DNA from: a virus
Direction: 5' to 3' (one strand)
Virus record (IMG/VR): IMGVR_UViG_3300029922_000146
Span: 1-40,815 of that record
DNA: 40,815 nucleotides
In this document: positions 1,902-38,644 of the stretch, in pieces
How the letters are laid out: every line of letters starts with the position of its first letter
Position numbering within the stretch: the first letter of the stretch is position 1
Program-made: the position numbers and the translations under genes
The notes under the pieces: generated by a model
Told to the model about the DNA's origin: nothing
Database searches by the model: none
Seen by the model: only the letters and a program-made list of their open reading frames with translations

Positions 1902-2420
1902 ATGGAATTTACACAGCAGCAGAAGAGCCTGCTTTCAGACGTGACCGCGGCGCGCAGGGTTTACCTTGACGCCAGCAAAGAGGTTGAGGCAAGGGTGCGC
2001 GAGGGCATTATGCGCGAATTGCAGCAGCTTTCAACGGCATATGATCTGGCGGTGCGCAGGGCTTTCAACGCAAACGTCCGTAAAGCCGATATTCTCCGTG
2101 CGAGTCTGACGACGAACTTCAATACGATGCAGGAGGCACTGAACCGTACCGAAGGTTTGCAGATTGACACGCCCGAGCCGACCAACGGCAAGTTCCGTCT
2201 CACCGCCGAGGGTCTACTTATTGTAACGGTTGACGGTGTTACCGTAGCTTTTGACCCGGTAGAACGCGACGATCATGCTGGCGATTACATGTACTTTACT
2301 GACACACCGCTGTGGAATAACGATATGACCGAGCGCAATGAGGTTGTGGCTGCACTCGACGGCCAGATCAATACCGATCTGTGGAGAGAGGCTAACGAAT
2401 TTATGAGGGAGAATGCATGA
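1902..2420 (+). CDS. Hypothetical protein (172 aa)
   Basis: The ATG at 1902 follows AAGGGA (1888-1893). The N-terminal 90 residues are strongly helical and charged (MEFTQQQKSLLSDVTAARRV onward), probably a coiled coil. The C-terminal half has beta-strand character (LTAEGLLIVTVDGVTVAFDP) and ends in a helix. No domain is recognised. The 3' end overlaps the start of the kinase-phosphatase gene by four bases (ATGA), so the two are probably co-translated. Confidence 0.75.
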   Translation: MEFTQQQKSLLSDVTAARRVYLDASKEVEARVREGIMRELQQLSTAYDLAVRRAFNANVRKADILRASLTTNFNTMQEALNRTEGLQIDTPEPTNGKFRLTAEGLLIVTVDGVTVAFDPVERDDHAGDYMYFTDTPLWNNDMTERNEVVAALDGQINTDLWREANEFMRENA

Positions 2421-3328
2421 CGACACTGAGAATCCAGCGCGGCGTACCGGCTAGTGGTAAGACCACTGACGCTAAAGCATGGCTCAAACAGGATGTGAAC
2501 CGCGTTCGAGTGAACCGTGATGACATTCGCGCGATGCTCGGCTGCTTCCCAATGGGCAACCAAGAGCAGGAGAACAACGTCACGGCGATTGAATTCGCCA
2601 GCATGGAGGCGGCACTCATTGCGGGTAATGATGTAGTAAACGATGCCACGAACCTGCGCAGCCAGAACGTAACAGCTATGCTCAAGCTGGCACAGAAGTA
2701 CGACGCTACCGTCGAGTTCAAAGACTTCCCAATTGGTCTGGACGCGGCAGTGAGGCGTGACGAAGACCGGGCGTTCGATGGATTGCCCGCAGTTGGTCGG
2801 GATGTGATCACCGGATTCTTTAAGCGCTACATTCGGGATGGTTACAATCTCCCCGAGCCGCCGAGCATCGATGAGGCACCTGTATTCGAGCTATACGTTC
2901 CTGATCCTGAGCTACCGCACTGCATTCTGGTGGACATTGATGGCACGCTGGCGCACATGACCAACCGGGGACCCTATGATACGAGCAAGTACACTGACGA
3001 CATTCTTGACGAGACTGTTCGAAATATTGTGGAAGCATGGTTTGATCGAACTCAAGCCAGCATTTTCATTATGTCCGGTAGAAACGAGGATCACCGGGGA
3101 GTTACCGAGCAGTGGCTTGAAGATAATGGAGTGTTCTATGACGCCCTGTTCATGCGACCCAGCTTCGATCCGAGCACGAAGGACAGCATCGTAAAGAACG
3201 CGTTGTTTGAGGCGGAGGTTGCGGGGAAGTATAATGTCGATTTCGTGCTGGACGACCGTGATCAGGTGGTTAAGATGTGGCGAGCCAAGGGACTCAAGGT
3301 ACTACAGGTCGCTGAGGGGAGCTTCTAG
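2417..3328 (+). CDS. Polynucleotide kinase / 3'-phosphatase
   Basis: This is a bifunctional end-healing enzyme like T4 PseT. The N-terminal kinase has the P-loop GVPASGKT (residues 9-16). The C-terminal half is a HAD phosphatase with DIDGTLAH (173-180), a second motif IMSGR (218-222) and a late acidic motif VLDDRD (277-282). Such enzymes add phosphate to 5'-OH ends and remove 2',3'-cyclic or 3' phosphate, producing 3'-OH and 5'-phosphate ends for a ligase. The domain order kinase then phosphatase and the 303-residue length match T4 Pnkp. An RNA ligase gene starts 100 bases downstream, supporting a role in RNA (tRNA) repair. It overlaps the upstream gene by four bases. Confidence 0.92.
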   Translation: MTTLRIQRGVPASGKTTDAKAWLKQDVNRVRVNRDDIRAMLGCFPMGNQEQENNVTAIEFASMEAALIAGNDVVNDATNLRSQNVTAMLKLAQKYDATVEFKDFPIGLDAAVRRDEDRAFDGLPAVGRDVITGFFKRYIRDGYNLPEPPSIDEAPVFELYVPDPELPHCILVDIDGTLAHMTNRGPYDTSKYTDDILDETVRNIVEAWFDRTQASIFIMSGRNEDHRGVTEQWLEDNGVFYDALFMRPSFDPSTKDSIVKNALFEAEVAGKYNVDFVLDDRDQVVKMWRAKGLKVLQVAEGSF

Positions 3329-3431
3329 TCTAGCTTGTTCGATTACCGCGCACTCGTCATGCCAACGCATTGAGTGCTACTGCAAGTGTCATAAGCTACC
3401 GAAGAAACTATATGGAGGTAAAGATCGGTGA
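3327..3431 (+). other. Possible small cysteine-rich reading frame without a clear start
   Basis: The 99-base gap between the kinase and ligase genes is open in the frame ending at TGA 3429-3431. It reads LACSITAHSSCQRIECYCKC and then HKLPKKLYGGKDR. Four closely spaced cysteines and two histidines look like a metal-binding knuckle rather than noise. There is no ATG, GTG or TTG in this frame after the kinase stop. The nearest in-frame ATG is at 3234, inside the kinase gene. It may be an out-of-frame gene with an unusual start, a decayed gene, or chance. The ligase ribosome-binding site GGAGG (3414-3418) lies within it. Confidence 0.25.
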
Positions 3432-4699
3432 GTAAGTTTGAAGAGCCAGCCAACAGTAACTATGTTGCTACCATTGTCCGCGTCAACTCGATTAATGAAC
3501 TGACCAACTGCGACAACGTGGTCGGTATACCGTTCTTTGGTATGCAGGCTATCGTTGGGCGCGACACGGAGGTTGGTGACATTGGCATCCTGTTCCCGGC
3601 CGAGGTCCAGCTTAGTGATGAGTTCGTCCGCGAGAACAACCTGTACCGTCACTCGGATAAGAATAATAACGAGAAACAGACCGGCTACATTGAAGATAAC
3701 CGCCGCGTCAAGGCCATGAAGTTTCGCGGTCACCAGAGCGACGCGCTGTTCATGCCGCTTTCTAGTCTCAGCCATCTGAAGGGTCTTCCGGACTTCGAAG
3801 TTGGCGACGTGTTCGATAAGATCAACGGCAGTGAGATTTGCCGCAAGTACCTTGTCAAGCAGCCCGGTGTCCAGCGTATTGATAAGAACGCGACCAAGAA
3901 ATTTGTCCGAGTCGAGTCTAAGTTCATGCCGGAGCACTACGATACGGACAACTGGTGGAGGAACGAGTATGCAATCCCAGAGAATGCGGATATTGTTGTC
4001 ACGCAGAAACTCCACGGAACAAGTATCCGTATTGGAAACACTATTGTTAAGCGTCAACTCAGCCTACGAGATAGGATTGCTAAGCGCCTCGGAGTCGCGG
4101 TCGCTGAGACAGGATATGATCACGTCTATGGTAGCCGGAAGGTTATCAAAGACCCGAACAATCCAGCACAGCAGCATTTTTATGAGGCGGTTGATGGACT
4201 CGATCTGTGGACAGCGACAGGTCGTTCACTCGATGACCGAATTGCACCAAACTTCATCCTCTACGGAGAACTCGTCGGCTATACGAAGGATGGAGCAAGC
4301 ATTCAGTCGGGTTACACCTATGATTGTGAACCTCGCGAATCTACTCTCTACGTTTACCGGGTAGCTGTTATCACAAGCGCTGGACGTCTGGTTGATCTTA
4401 GCTGGAATCAGGTTAAGAACTATTGCAACGAGATTGGAGTCAAGTATGTTCCTGAGCTTTGGGTTGGGAAAAAGAAAGATTTTTCTGTCGATCTGTTCAC
4501 GGACTCGCGACTTAAAGATGCTGGGTTCAGCAACGCGGTCCAGCTATCCGATGGAAAATCGGTGGATGAGGGCGTGGTCATTCGGACCGATATTGGTCTG
4601 GCTCCATATCTCCTGAAAGCCAAGTCACCTATCTTCCTAAGACACGAGAGCGCACTGCTCGACGCCGAGGTTGTCGATCTAGAAGCGGAGAACTCCTGA
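3428..4699 (+). CDS. RNA ligase (KxHGT type, DRB0094-like)
   Basis: The GTG start at 3428 is preceded by GGAGG (3414-3418) at nine-base spacing. The product is a nucleotidyltransferase: motif I KLHGTS puts the AMP-accepting lysine at residue 194, followed by FILYGELVGY, EGVVIRTD and LLKAKSP, corresponding to motifs III/IIIa, IV and V. The N-terminal 130 residues (VATIVRVNSI, VGDIGILFPAEVQ) resemble the OB-like extension of the Deinococcus DRB0094 (Rnl5) ligase family. These enzymes seal 3'-OH/5'-phosphate ends in RNA using ATP. The position directly after the polynucleotide kinase-phosphatase gives a complete heal-and-seal pair. The stop TGA at 4697-4699 overlaps the ATG of the next gene by one base. 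Confidence 0.9.
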   Translation: MSKFEEPANSNYVATIVRVNSINELTNCDNVVGIPFFGMQAIVGRDTEVGDIGILFPAEVQLSDEFVRENNLYRHSDKNNNEKQTGYIEDNRRVKAMKFRGHQSDALFMPLSSLSHLKGLPDFEVGDVFDKINGSEICRKYLVKQPGVQRIDKNATKKFVRVESKFMPEHYDTDNWWRNEYAIPENADIVVTQKLHGTSIRIGNTIVKRQLSLRDRIAKRLGVAVAETGYDHVYGSRKVIKDPNNPAQQHFYEAVDGLDLWTATGRSLDDRIAPNFILYGELVGYTKDGASIQSGYTYDCEPRESTLYVYRVAVITSAGRLVDLSWNQVKNYCNEIGVKYVPELWVGKKKDFSVDLFTDSRLKDAGFSNAVQLSDGKSVDEGVVIRTDIGLAPYLLKAKSPIFLRHESALLDAEVVDLEAENS

Positions 4700-5454
4700 T
4701 GCGATTCCGCGTACTCCCATACAAGACGGGCTCAGCCAGCGCCAGAGCGCTTGCGAATGCACTCGGAGGGTTGCGTCTCAAAACGACAGGCCGATCCTTT
4801 AGGGCGCGTTCTGACGACATTCTGATCAACTGGGGTTCTAGCTCCCGACCGGAGCGGCTCACCGGCTTAAAATTACTCAACGATCCCGACACGATCAGCC
4901 GAGTTAGTGATAAGCTCACATTTTTCAACCGCATGGCAGCATGGGAAGAGACACTCATCCCTAAGTTTTGGAACGATCCGGATGCAATCCCCGAAGATGC
5001 ATTTCCCATCGTTTGCAGGACCGTGTTGAATGGTCACAGTGGCGCAGGTATCGTCATTGCGAACACTCGGCAAGAGATTGTCCCTGCCCCGCTCTATGTC
5101 AAGTACCAAAAGAAAGACAATGAGTACCGAATCCATGTCGGCGGTGAGAAGATCATTGCGGTTCAGCGTAAAGCTCGGTCTCGTGCAATCGAGAATGTAA
5201 ACTGGCAGATTCGGAATCACCAGAACGGTTTCATTTTCCAGCGCAACGGTTTTGAGGTACCGGACCGTGTGATCGATGCTGCAAAACGTTCACTCGCCGT
5301 ATCGGGGCTTGACTTTGGTGCCGTTGATGTGATAGACAGGGAATCGAAAGAGCGAGCACTCGTTCTGGAAATTAACTCAGCACCCGGCACCACGGGTCAG
5401 ACAATTCAGGATTACGTGAACTACTTTAAGGGAGAATGGCTTGCAAGAACGTAG
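4699..5454 (+). CDS. ATP-grasp family protein (RimK-like)
   Basis: The C-terminal half carries the ATP-grasp signature: YRIHVGGEKIIAVQ, then LDFGAVDVID (about residues 207-216) and VLEINSAPGTTG (about 225-236), in which the acidic and Asn residues bind Mg-ATP. ATP-grasp enzymes join a carboxylate to an amine or other nucleophile through an acyl-phosphate. RimK-type members add amino acids to protein or peptide ends. The substrate cannot be read from sequence. The N-terminal third lacks a recognised domain. It starts at the last base of the RNA ligase gene and overlaps the next gene by 14 bases, so it belongs to the same transcript as the RNA repair pair. ATP-grasp genes recur in actinobacteriophages with no assigned role. 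Confidence 0.85.
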   Translation: MRFRVLPYKTGSASARALANALGGLRLKTTGRSFRARSDDILINWGSSSRPERLTGLKLLNDPDTISRVSDKLTFFNRMAAWEETLIPKFWNDPDAIPEDAFPIVCRTVLNGHSGAGIVIANTRQEIVPAPLYVKYQKKDNEYRIHVGGEKIIAVQRKARSRAIENVNWQIRNHQNGFIFQRNGFEVPDRVIDAAKRSLAVSGLDFGAVDVIDRESKERALVLEINSAPGTTGQTIQDYVNYFKGEWLART

Positions 5455-5635
5455 GATTTGGGCGCGCGGTCTCACCGCCAGCGATCGTGGAAAGATCGTC
5501 TCCGGCCTAAACTCGGACGGCTTTTACCAGACTGCTTTAATCCAGTCCGTTGAAAACCTAGATAATTCAACGATAGTAACGGTAACCTCTCAGATAGACT
5601 TCGATTCCGACAGGGAGATTATAGTGTATGACTAG
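5441..5635 (+). CDS. Hypothetical protein (64 aa)
   Basis: A TTG start at 5441 is preceded by AAGGGAG (5428-5434). The frame overlaps both neighbours (14 bases upstream, 8 downstream). The sequence MQERRIWARGLTASDRGKIV followed by alternating strand-like residues (TALIQSVENLDNSTIVTVTS) suggests a compact beta protein, possibly an SH3-like fold. No family is recognised. Overlap at both ends with an SD-supported start favours a real gene. Confidence 0.65.
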   Translation: MQERRIWARGLTASDRGKIVSGLNSDGFYQTALIQSVENLDNSTIVTVTSQIDFDSDREIIVYD

Positions 5636-6044
5636 TCACATGACCGACTGGCGTCTGGAAACATTACACCGGTACGAGCGTTATGAAAAGAGAGTGCTTG
5701 ATGCACTTCCCGAGCTAGAGAAACTGGATCAAGGGTTCAACTCTCTCAGACGGGGACTATCTTTTAAGGCGGCGGCAAACTCAGCCGGGGTGTCCGCAAT
5801 GCGATTGCGCAATAGATATGGTACAGATTTTCCGGATCACCCTCGACACGCGACACTGAGCCAGGATCGCCGCAAGAAAATTCAAGCCATGCTCGATGAT
5901 GGTTGCAGCTTTACGGAGATTGCAGCAACTTTGCACGTACAGAAAGACACGCTCCGAAAATATTGGCCCGGTCGCGGCTGGACGCAATCTCAAGCAGGCT
6001 CTCACGGTGTAACGATGACAAGATTGGGAAAGGTTCTCAAATGA
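5628..6044 (+). CDS. Helix-turn-helix DNA-binding protein (138 aa)
   Basis: Two HTH-like segments are visible: LSFKAAANSAGVSAMRLRNR (about residues 44-63) and CSFTEIAATLHVQKDTLRKY (about 93-112), the latter followed by PGRGWT. This tandem arrangement is common in phage DNA-binding proteins that recognise a repeated half-site. The N-terminus has an alternative internal ATG at codon 5. It probably regulates transcription or marks a DNA site, but no target is evident. The stop overlaps the next start (ATGA). Confidence 0.8.
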   Translation: MTSHMTDWRLETLHRYERYEKRVLDALPELEKLDQGFNSLRRGLSFKAAANSAGVSAMRLRNRYGTDFPDHPRHATLSQDRRKKIQAMLDDGCSFTEIAATLHVQKDTLRKYWPGRGWTQSQAGSHGVTMTRLGKVLK

Positions 6045-26579: not shown

Positions 26580-27098
26580 ATGGCAACGTTAAAAAGCTAT
26601 CCACCAAAACGGAAATCTAGAGCTTATGAGGACTATCCTAACCGTAGAACAAATCCAGATGGCTCATGGAAAGTCTGTAAAGCAGAAAACTGCGAGCTAC
26701 CAGTAAGGTGTCGTGGGCTATGTCGTACACACTATGAATGGGAGCTTCGAAGCCTCCCCCTTGGTGACGCCAGGACGCACGGTAAGCGTTGCCCTGTTAG
26801 GGATTGCAAGGTTGCCTGTCTGCATCCTGCGGATATGTGCGGCAAGCATACTCGTCAGGCTAAGGGGTATAACTTAAGCTGGATAGAATTTGTAAAGATT
26901 AAAAACGGGACACAGGTCTGTCAAAATTGGGGATGCGAAAATACGGAGAGATTGCATATAGATCACAACCATAATACAGGTGAAATTCGTGGACTTTTGT
27001 GTCATGGCTGCAATGTTGCACTTGGCATGATACAAGAAAACCCCCGCAGATTGCAGGGGTTACTTGATTGGATTCATGCACCAGCCCTAATGGACTAG
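26580..27098 (+). CDS. HNH endonuclease (endonuclease VII type), likely homing
   Basis: A free-standing plus-strand gene inside the minus-strand structural operon. The C-terminal half is an endonuclease VII-type HNH: LHIDHNHNTGEIRGLLCHGC then NVALGMIQENP, with a zinc-binding CQNWGC before it. The N-terminal half has further Cys/His pairs (CKAENCELPVRCRGLCRTHY; CPVRDCKVACLHPADMCGKH) that look like DNA-binding zinc modules. The Lys-rich start, higher AT content and opposite orientation mark it as an insertion. It probably cuts uninvaded relatives near this locus and spreads by repair. It splits two related tail-tube-like genes. Confidence 0.9.
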   Translation: MATLKSYPPKRKSRAYEDYPNRRTNPDGSWKVCKAENCELPVRCRGLCRTHYEWELRSLPLGDARTHGKRCPVRDCKVACLHPADMCGKHTRQAKGYNLSWIEFVKIKNGTQVCQNWGCENTERLHIDHNHNTGEIRGLLCHGCNVALGMIQENPRRLQGLLDWIHAPALMD

Positions 27099-34202: not shown

Positions 34203-36953
34203 CTACCACGCATAACTTTTCTCTGAATACCAATCGCCCTGCTCGTAGAGATTCTCGTCCCAATCCTGCGTGATGATATCGCCAGCCTGTGGTCCATCGA
34301 GATGCTCGGTGTCCATGCAGGCGTACCAAGCAGCGTCCGCCGCGTCAGGAGAATGAATACCACGTTTCTTCATAGCTTCCTTTGACTCGATTAGCATACC
34401 ACCACTGGTTGCCGAGAAACCGTACTGGATTCCGCCAAGCTCATCGATAAGCTGTTCATCCTTTGGATCGATATCTATTGTTCCCTGGAACATTTGTCGA
34501 CGCATTTCTGAGTACTGGTATGCTCGCTGGTTGTGGTACGCCCTCTTATCTGGCGTCTCGCCCGAACCCCATATCTCAACAATACGATACCTACCACGAG
34601 CAAGCACAAACAACGGATCAATAACACCGTGCCCAAGACCTGAAGCATCTACTCGAACCTCTTCTACTGCTAGCGACATAGCAAGCTCATGGATTCGCTC
34701 AGCCGAACCTTTCCACAGAACCAGATTCCCGAACTTGTCTTCAATCTCACGCGAGATGAAGGGCGCATCTTTCCACATTCCGACCTGTCGCAGCTTGCCA
34801 CCCCGGATTACCTCGTGCGTATCCTCGGATAGAAGATCGGTACCGAGTGGCTCGTTGGTTTCGGGGTGTGTAGCCTGAACGGTCCCGCGCTCGTACATGT
34901 AAACGTACGTTGAGTCCTGACCCATACGAGCAATGTCAACTCCGAGTACGCGGTACGGGTCATCCAAATCGGGGAAAACGACAGCATTCATCGCCTGTGC
35001 AAGATCGAACTCACTGAAGAGCGTGTTACCGGCGTCGTAAGCAAACTCACCCAGCACGCGGGATTTGTAGCGCGGGCTGTCTTCGCCGTACTCTTTTTTC
35101 TTATCCTCGACGTACTCATCGTTGGTCAGCTTGCTCAGCGCATCCGCAGACATTCCAAGACCGACTGGCTCATTAGCGTGGCAAGTACAGCGACCACGAC
35201 CGTGAAAGTTCGGTGAGTCCATAACGCTGATCGTCTGAAGAATCCAAGCGCCAGTGTCTTCCTTGAAAATCTTTCCGAAGTAGGACAGCGGGTTAGTCGG
35301 GTTACCGATTACGACACGACGAGAATTGTTGTTCGACGTAATGTTAGCTAGACCATCGATCATCGATCCGGACAGACCGCAGTTACCTGTCCAAATTGCA
35401 TAGCCATTTCTGCGAGTTAACAACGTATGGTTTTCTGGCATCGTGGCGCAGTAAACCGTGCCGTCGTAATCAACCCATTTTTGGTTATGCTTTACGAGCT
35501 TCAGCATCGTGCTCTTGTGCTGACGAGTGACGACCCAGCCATCACGAGACGACGTAATCACGCGGCCATCCGCAAGTGGCTGGGAATCGCCCAGACCTCT
35601 AGACGAAACCCTACTACTGAAACCGGTCTTCAAGATTGCCTCTTGCAGATCGTCCGCCATTTCTTTACAAGAGGTATAGATAATATCTCTACCCCTGCGC
35701 GAGTATCCATCACCCTTGACATAGCTATCCAATAGTACGGAAAGCCTCTCGGGAGACCAACTAAGAACCTCAGGCCCAAGTCGCTTAACATCGCAGGTTC
35801 GACCGGATTTTACGAGATATCTAGCCAGCTGACTGTCATGGATGGCGAACTGATCCTCATACTCGCTGTAGTTGAATCCAAGTCGGTTGAGTAGTTCTCG
35901 TATCTCATTGCGGTTATCTACGTTAATTGCAGATTGCCAGATGCTCACGGTATTCAGGCTCTTATTGATCGAGCCTTCGCTATAGTGCCAACCGCAGAAT
36001 CTGGCCCAATCGAGGGCATTCAGTGCTCTTTCGCTAAAGAGCTTACGTTCGCCCCGATACTCGGGCAGCGTAAATACTTCGGACGAGTCACCCGTCCAGT
36101 TGACATGACGAGGGACCATTTTATTACTAAAGGTCATCTCTTCAGCCGTGGAGGACAGCAGCGGGCCATCGTACCCAAGAGCGGTGCTGTAGTAAACCAT
36201 GCGATGATCAGGGGTCACCTTAAAGTCCGCTCCAGCCGATGCATAATGCAGCATCTTGCCCGTATAGTTCTTCGCAATCATGCGGACGGGTTTTTCGTAT
36301 TGGGACTTACCGGTCTTTTCGTTCATGGTCATTAGGAGGTCGCTAGAGGATACGTCTCTGAATAGCTTCCATCCAGAGTCTGTCAACACTTCAGTCTGGT
36401 CATCGTGGCAGGCTTCGTCGCCAATAGCGAGAACGTGTCCATCGTGGAAACCCTGGAACGCGTCTTCAGCCTTGTTGTCCGGTGGTTTTCGGCCCTGGGC
36501 AATGATGTTACCTAGGTCATCTTTCCACTTGTTGTCCTGAGTTATATAGCCGGGTAGCGGCCGATAACGCTGGGGGTCTTGTTTAGCGAGGCTGTGAGAG
36601 AGTTGGTAGGCTTTGCGAATCTCTCGCCAGAGGATACCGGTAACCTGATCGGCTGACGGTGCGGTAGTTGCAACAAAGACTCGCTCAATGGGGCGCGTAT
36701 CGATCCACCAGCAACAAAGCATTGCTGCCCAGAATGACTTTCCGACTCCGTGCCCCGCTTTAATCGCAACGTTTTTGTTGTTGACGACAGCATCGCTTGC
36801 TTCAACCTGCTTGTACCACAGGTCAATACCAAGCCGATCATGGCACCACAAAGCAACATCCGTGAAATAACGGTCGTTAATCTCATCAGAATCTAGTTTC
36901 TTCAGATACTCGCTGACGATCCCGGTTACATCGAAGTCACTAATCGGCAACAT
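34203..36953 (-). CDS. terL: Terminase large subunit containing an intein
   Basis: The precursor is 916 residues, the spliced protein 573. The ATPase has Walker A IKAGHGVGKSF (about residues 64-74) and Walker B VLAIGDEA (174-181). The intein begins at the very next residue, and the C-extein resumes CGLSGSMIDGLANI, then RRVVIGNPTNP (coupling motif). The nuclease domain has RVLGVDIARMGQDSTYVYMY (first acid), VRVDASGLG and the late DAADAAWYA acid motif. It translocates and cuts concatemeric DNA at the portal. It overlaps the small subunit gene by 14 bases. Splicing must succeed for packaging. Confidence 0.93.
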   Translation of the reverse strand: MLPISDFDVTGIVSEYLKKLDSDEINDRYFTDVALWCHDRLGIDLWYKQVEASDAVVNNKNVAIKAGHGVGKSFWAAMLCCWWIDTRPIERVFVATTAPSADQVTGILWREIRKAYQLSHSLAKQDPQRYRPLPGYITQDNKWKDDLGNIIAQGRKPPDNKAEDAFQGFHDGHVLAIGDEACHDDQTEVLTDSGWKLFRDVSSSDLLMTMNEKTGKSQYEKPVRMIAKNYTGKMLHYASAGADFKVTPDHRMVYYSTALGYDGPLLSSTAEEMTFSNKMVPRHVNWTGDSSEVFTLPEYRGERKLFSERALNALDWARFCGWHYSEGSINKSLNTVSIWQSAINVDNRNEIRELLNRLGFNYSEYEDQFAIHDSQLARYLVKSGRTCDVKRLGPEVLSWSPERLSVLLDSYVKGDGYSRRGRDIIYTSCKEMADDLQEAILKTGFSSRVSSRGLGDSQPLADGRVITSSRDGWVVTRQHKSTMLKLVKHNQKWVDYDGTVYCATMPENHTLLTRRNGYAIWTGNCGLSGSMIDGLANITSNNNSRRVVIGNPTNPLSYFGKIFKEDTGAWILQTISVMDSPNFHGRGRCTCHANEPVGLGMSADALSKLTNDEYVEDKKKEYGEDSPRYKSRVLGEFAYDAGNTLFSEFDLAQAMNAVVFPDLDDPYRVLGVDIARMGQDSTYVYMYERGTVQATHPETNEPLGTDLLSEDTHEVIRGGKLRQVGMWKDAPFISREIEDKFGNLVLWKGSAERIHELAMSLAVEEVRVDASGLGHGVIDPLFVLARGRYRIVEIWGSGETPDKRAYHNQRAYQYSEMRRQMFQGTIDIDPKDEQLIDELGGIQYGFSATSGGMLIESKEAMKKRGIHSPDAADAAWYACMDTEHLDGPQAGDIITQDWDENLYEQGDWYSEKSYAW
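35382..36410 (-). mobile_element. Intein with LAGLIDADG homing endonuclease in TerL
   Basis: 343 residues (182-524 of the precursor), in phase. It opens with Cys (CHDDQTEVLTDSGWKLF, block A) and has block B as DFKVTPDHRMVYY. The two dodecapeptide motifs of a DOD endonuclease are RFCGWHYSEGSI and LLDSYVKGDGYS. The C-terminal blocks are VYCATMPENHTLLTRRNGYA then IWTGN, followed by extein Cys+1. The final Asn and Cys+1 are intact; the penultimate residue is Gly rather than the usual His, as in some other phage inteins. Both acidic endonuclease residues (Glu, Asp) are present, so homing activity looks intact. Confidence 0.93.
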
Positions 36954-38471: not shown

Positions 38472-38485
38472 TATAAATACAACTG

Positions 38486-38559
38486 TTGCCAGTGCGGGAT
38501 TTGAACCCGCGACCTCCAGCTTATGGGGCTGGCGGGCTACCGAACTGCCCTAACCGGCG
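38486..38559 (-). tRNA. tRNA with anticodon CAU (Met or Ile2)
   Basis: A complete 74-nt cloverleaf without encoded CCA. The acceptor is CGCCGGT/ACTGGCA with C1-A72 unpaired, the D-stem GGGC/GCCC, the anticodon stem CCAGC/GCTGG with loop CCCATAA, a five-base variable loop, and T-stem GCGGG/CCCGC with loop TTCAAAT. The anticodon is CAT. The C1-A72 mismatch is the hallmark of initiator tRNA, but the three G-C pairs of initiator anticodon stems are missing. Position 33 is C instead of the near-universal T. It may be an elongator Met tRNA or an Ile tRNA needing lysidine. Confidence 0.9.
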
Positions 38560-38572
38560 TTACTTTTTTGCG

Positions 38573-38644
38573 CAGACACTGGAGGATTCGAACCTTCAAC
38601 ACGCGGTTTTGGAGACCGCTGCTCTACCGTTGAGCTAAGTGCCT
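38573..38644 (-). tRNA. tRNA-Trp (anticodon CCA)
   Basis: A 72-nt cloverleaf: acceptor AGGCACT/AGTGTCT (one G-U pair), D-stem GCTC/GAGC, anticodon stem GCGGT/ACCGC with loop CTCCAAA giving anticodon CCA, and T-stem GAAGG/CCTCC (one A-C mismatch) with loop TTCGAAT. Discriminator is G, as in bacterial Trp tRNAs. No CCA end is encoded. It lies 13 bases upstream of the CAU tRNA on the same transcript. Confidence 0.92.

Follow-up and report, generated by a model that had tools for sequence, protein, structure and literature searches.

The window analyzed here, i.e., the whole of a linear virus record of 40.8 kb, carries in its early region genes for a polynucleotide kinase-phosphatase (PNKP), an RNA ligase and an ATP-grasp carboxylate-amine ligase. 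There is good support for the first two being an ordinary RNA-repair pair of the kind found in phages, with a ligase type that is less usual. For the third, we consider it probable (roughly 0.7) that the enzyme is independent of this pair, its gene having reached a compact early operon by mosaic exchange and without its usual partners; the ATP-grasp gene is then most likely a chance (mosaic) neighbor of the repair genes. The basis of this reading is observed: the identities and motifs of the genes, their pattern of co-occurrence, the lack of amidoligases in the window and the position of its ATP-grasp within a group of amidoligase-linked ones.

The early region and the phage

All genes considered in this region are found on the + strand. 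An open reading frame (ORF) of 172 residues with no assigned function (1902–2420) overlaps by 4 nt the start of the PNKP gene (2417–3328), which is followed by a 99-nt gap (3329–3427) with a GGAGG ribosome-binding site ahead of the GTG start of the ligase gene (3428–4699). The ATP-grasp gene (4699–5454) begins on the final base of the stop codon of the ligase gene, a 1-nt overlap, and its 3' end overlaps by 14 nt a 64-residue ORF with a TTG start and no assigned function (5441–5635), which in turn overlaps by 8 nt the gene for a 138-residue helix-turn-helix protein (HTH_38, phrog_664; 5628–6044). An earlier, sequence-only reading had described the three enzyme genes as one overlapping operon. 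Family matches and motifs confirm that the genes are real and were placed correctly, and the overlaps hold for ligase and ATP-grasp and for the small genes downstream, but not for PNKP and ligase. Because about half (9 of 18) of the adjacent early-region gene pairs overlap, in the gene set made for this analysis, overlap is here no sign of a common function. A scan for promoters and terminators gave no result bearing on the operon, and PADLOC returned no match for six proteins from the region. The idea of a conserved small gene in the gap between the two repair genes was rejected, as the intervening sequences of the phages Tandem and Hoonter and of the window look unrelated.

The nearest relative of both the portal protein (33.5% identity) and the primase (49%) is found in Clavibacter phage CN1A, and most other matches are to actinophages; an actinobacterial host is for these reasons likely. 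Several other features of the record were observed. The terminase large subunit ORF (34203–36953, - strand, 916 residues) contains an insert, CHDDQTEVL...NGYAIWTGN, which matches LAGLIDADG_3 (PF14528, 2.6e-6) and appears to be an intein. An ORF cut by the left end (2–505, + strand) starts with nine-residue repeats, ATTG(D/R)(S/Y)AHA, encoded by a 27-nt tandem repeat. A 172-residue ORF assigned by eye as a putative HNH endonuclease is found on the opposite (+) strand among the late structural genes (26580–27098), and adjoining genes for tRNA-Met (CAT) and tRNA-Trp (CCA) are located at 38485–38644 (- strand).

The RNA-repair pair

The gene at 2417–3328 is that of a T4-type polynucleotide 5'-kinase/3'-phosphatase of predicted activity. 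The protein is full length, with an N-terminal P-loop kinase domain (AAA_33, PF13671, 6e-14) and a C-terminal HAD phosphatase domain (HAD_PNKP, PF25109, 3e-44). It aligns over its full length with Pnkp1 (PDB 4xrp, 3e-38) and T4 Pnkp (1ltq, 2e-27), and it contains the P-loop GVPASGKTT, RDDIR, the HAD motif DIDGT and DDRDQVV. It is 45% identical to the PNKP of phage CN1A and about 51% identical to that of Curtobacterium phage Yappy.

The ligase matches RNA_ligase (PF09414, 2e-15) and phrog_968 (1e-96). It has the motif I lysine and motifs III–V of ATP-dependent RNA ligases, which are covalent nucleotidyltransferases: KLHGT (4001–4030), ELVG (4262–4282), DEGV (4562–4585) and KAK (4610–4627), and the residues K194, E281, E381, K397 and K399 are invariant in an alignment of 35 sequences. 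The sequence KLHG is also motif I of T4 Rnl2. In the structural model (pLDDT 89.5) an N-terminal OB-like domain, for which the match to PF21189 (0.0015) is under that profile's cut-off, precedes the nucleotidyltransferase domain, i.e., the domain order is that of Rnl5. The nearest fold in the PDB is that of the Naegleria RNA ligase (NgrRnl), which matches over the whole chain (E 1e-13, TM 0.56–0.70), followed by the trypanosome editing ligase and T4 Rnl2. Against the TIGR02306 model (RNA_lig_DRB0094) the ligase scores 18.8 bits (6e-4) and the cut-off is 151, which places it outside that equivalog; because the score is so far below the cut-off, we refer to the enzyme as Rnl5-like, by its predicted fold, rather than as a member of the Rnl5 equivalog. 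A T4 Rnl1 type was ruled out: the ligase has no match to PF09511 (RNA_lig_T4_1), which the CN1A and Yappy ligases do match, and its fold is nearest to that of the Naegleria enzyme. A single-protein scan of viral contigs for close relatives returned none, and alignment-based scans were required to find them. Near the genes of the two closest ones, L097 (67%) and L098 (61%), we noted by eye genes similar to those of phosphoribosyl pyrophosphate synthetase and nicotinate/nicotinamide phosphoribosyltransferase (L097, 5040–7446; L098, 9034–11864), an arrangement which suggests NAD salvage next to RNA repair.

The two functions are found together repeatedly. Among viral PNKP loci, the 80 nearest to that of the window were fetched; 61 of them have an RNA ligase of the queried types in the fetched stretch, 42 at a distance of 1.5 kb or less, and a PNKP is present at 66 of 80 RNA ligase loci. 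The pair is also found in the named phages Microbacterium Tandem, Mycobacterium Hoonter, Curtobacterium Yappy and Clavibacter CN1A. Families, catalytic motifs and this recurrent co-location support an end-healing and sealing pair. At broken RNA ends, the PNKP would turn a 2',3'-cyclic phosphate or 3'-phosphate into a 3'-OH and a 5'-OH into a 5'-phosphate, after which the healed ends would be sealed by the Rnl5-like ligase. Phage PNKP–ligase pairs are widely interpreted as RNA repair systems (PMC7824862, PMC13148394). In T4, tRNA-Lys cut by PrrC is rejoined by Pnkp and Rnl1 (PMC3400036; PMC10264068). The PNK and RNA ligase of mycobacteriophage LeBron, each of which is toxic when overexpressed, were read as RNA metabolism genes (PMC13148394), and a survey of jumbo phages noted RNA ligases of actinophages that are divergent and belong to neither Rnl1 nor Rnl2 (PMC7824862). 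Thus, of the sequence-only description of a complete T4-like tRNA repair pair, the healing and sealing functions are retained, but the ligase is Rnl5-like and not of the T4 Rnl1 type.

The likeliest use of the pair would be to undo cuts made in tRNA or other RNA by ribonuclease defenses of the host. The Rnl5-type relatives named here are known for acting on nicked duplexes rather than on open anticodon loops, so that the step from the pair to anticodon repair is one that we infer. A different role in the nucleic-acid metabolism of the phage, for example in replication or intron processing, where the pair would seal nicks in duplex RNA or RNA/DNA ends, would fit the observation that the nearest folds, listed above, are those of nick-sealing enzymes and not of Rnl1, as well as the location of the two genes just ahead of helicase, ERF and exonuclease-like genes. 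We regard such a role as unlikely, since pairs of this kind are commonly read as RNA repair (PMC7824862, PMC13148394) and since phage CN1A couples its 45% identical PNKP to an Rnl1-type ligase, which suggests a single role with exchangeable ligases. The window pair adds a case of modular RNA repair: in related phages, related PNKPs are found with ligases from different families, and one can ask which kinds of cut each of these ligase types is able to mend.

An ATP-grasp gene apart from its usual partners

The ATP-grasp gene encodes an active-looking carboxylate-amine ligase of a family found in phage amidoligase systems (phrog_2599, 3e-71). The ORF is full length, all 36 of the 36 conserved positions checked are intact, and the protein has a different residue at only four of the positions on which at least 85% of its relatives agree. 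The model has a mean pLDDT of 94.4, and the nearest folds are those of LysX, ArgX and RimK.

A survey of the family yielded 131 distinct loci, of which 95 had at least 3 kb of upstream sequence. Genes of the amidoligase system are found beside the ATP-grasp gene at 93 of these 95 loci by tblastn and at 94 upon adding one locus (L181) where Pfam finds an amidoligase and a glutamine amidotransferase (GATase). The phages that were opened, CW02, RIO-1, T5S1, HSd1, RHph_N3_13 and SGF2, all have adjoining genes for an amidoligase, a COOH-NH2 ligase and/or a glutamine amidotransferase. In the window, tblastn gave no match to these partners, and Amidoligase_2 (PF12224), COOH-NH2 ligase (PF14395) and GATase have no match in the whole record, while related records were matched in the same searches. 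As the record is linear and perhaps not complete, amidoligases may exist beyond its ends. A 34-sequence tree places the window ATP-grasp in a clade of 25 rows; every member of this clade with enough sequence is linked to amidoligases.

The sole amidoligase-free locus among the 95 relatives, L086, is found in a 54.6-kb record with repair proteins that resemble those of alphaproteobacterial phages. Around its ATP-grasp gene are genes for an Rnl2-like ligase, a PNKP with reversed domain order and an Rnl1-type ligase. Its ATP-grasp belongs to a clade separate from that of the window (split 100/99), and the two orphans thus arose separately. Searching with the PNKP of L086 returned, besides itself, only three distant relatives, so that L086 stays a single case. 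At another locus, L084, which has the full amidoligase set, an RNA ligase gene is located between the ATP-grasp gene and a gamma-glutamyl cyclotransferase-like gene. In L086 we also noted a gene with an Nmad5 nucleotide-modification domain (4228–5079, 8e-11) between one of the RNA ligases and the orphan ATP-grasp.

The sequence-only reading had proposed that the ATP-grasp enzyme acts in the same response as the repair pair, a proposal to be abandoned if the three genes rarely co-occurred. Rare they are: ATP-grasp is absent from all 80 PNKP loci and all 80 ligase loci in local tblastn searches that recover known ATP-grasps, and the trio is otherwise found, loosely, in L086. The ATP-grasp is also absent from 50 whole ligase records, in a search that had no positive control of its own and with which the local tblastn runs agree. 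Conversely, 50 whole ATP-grasp records contain RNA_ligase in two cases (L086 and L084) and HAD_PNKP in one (L086), and a scan of bacterial and archaeal genomes yielded 8 ATP-grasp loci with no RNA-repair matches at the thresholds used. The family otherwise resides in amidoligase operons (94 of 95 loci).

A single response, in which RNA is mended by the first two enzymes and a protein (e.g., a ribosomal protein, a translation factor or a nuclease) receives an amino acid or peptide from the ATP-grasp enzyme, is against this background improbable. It would be in line with the 1-nt overlap of ligase and ATP-grasp, with the RNA ligase inside the amidoligase set of L084 and with the finding that both amidoligase-free ATP-grasps, in the window and in L086, share their genome with a PNKP and RNA ligase (HAD_PNKP is found in 0 of 49 other whole records). 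However, the window was picked for this very association, which leaves L086 as the one independent case, and the Fisher p of 0.02 (1/1 vs 0/49) is from a test chosen afterwards; the genes of L086 span about 12 kb and its ligases are of other families; no such link is seen at the 160 PNKP and ligase loci; and gene overlaps are commonplace in this operon. L086 and L084 are few cases and suggestive, and the functional link of the three-gene module is weak. Slightly less probable still is a counter-defense module, reached independently in the lineages of the window and L086, in which an ATP-grasp that no longer serves the amidoligase pathway would tag a protein of translation or repair, with cut RNA mended by PNKP and the Rnl5-like ligase. 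Equally doubtful is a reading in which an amidoligase operon was lost and its ATP-grasp gene is now decaying; this would account for the lack of every partner in the record but not for the full-length ORF, the intact conserved positions, the high pLDDT and the mere four departures.

Independent capture is the reading that we prefer. The ATP-grasp gene descends from the phage amidoligase gene set and would have entered the compact early operon alone, probably by mosaic exchange, and its product probably acts on a target of its own, apart from RNA repair. An orphan of this kind offers a natural entry point for a substrate search in a phage pathway for which the searched literature holds no established product.

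Comparison with known systems

The window pair and T4 Pnkp–Rnl1 are both phage-encoded and share the kinase-phosphatase family and the order of healing followed by sealing by an ATP-dependent RNA ligase, but the window ligase is from another family, Rnl5-like with an N-terminal OB domain. With the Rnl5 ligases Deinococcus DraRnl and Naegleria NgrRnl it shares the predicted fold and the order of OB and nucleotidyltransferase domains; it differs from them in its weak match to the DRB0094 model, under the cut-off, and in its motif I, KLHG.

In the actinophages Tandem, Hoonter, Yappy and CN1A, as in the window, the genes for healing and sealing are near each other within the early region, but in contrast to the window no ATP-grasp gene adjoins them. 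The ligases of Tandem and Hoonter belong to the family of the window ligase (42–48%), whereas those of Yappy and CN1A are of the Rnl1 type (PF09511). CN1A has a PNKP gene and, after the primase gene, a ligase gene; both type and position of this ligase differ from those in the window, and no ATP-grasp is annotated within the 20 kb read. The phage amidoligase gene sets (phiEco32, RIO-1, PA11 and LUZ24 types) contain an ATP-grasp of the same family as that of the window, with up to 58% identity and conserved residues intact; in these sets it is accompanied by the amidoligase, COOH-NH2 ligase and glutamine amidotransferase that the window is without.
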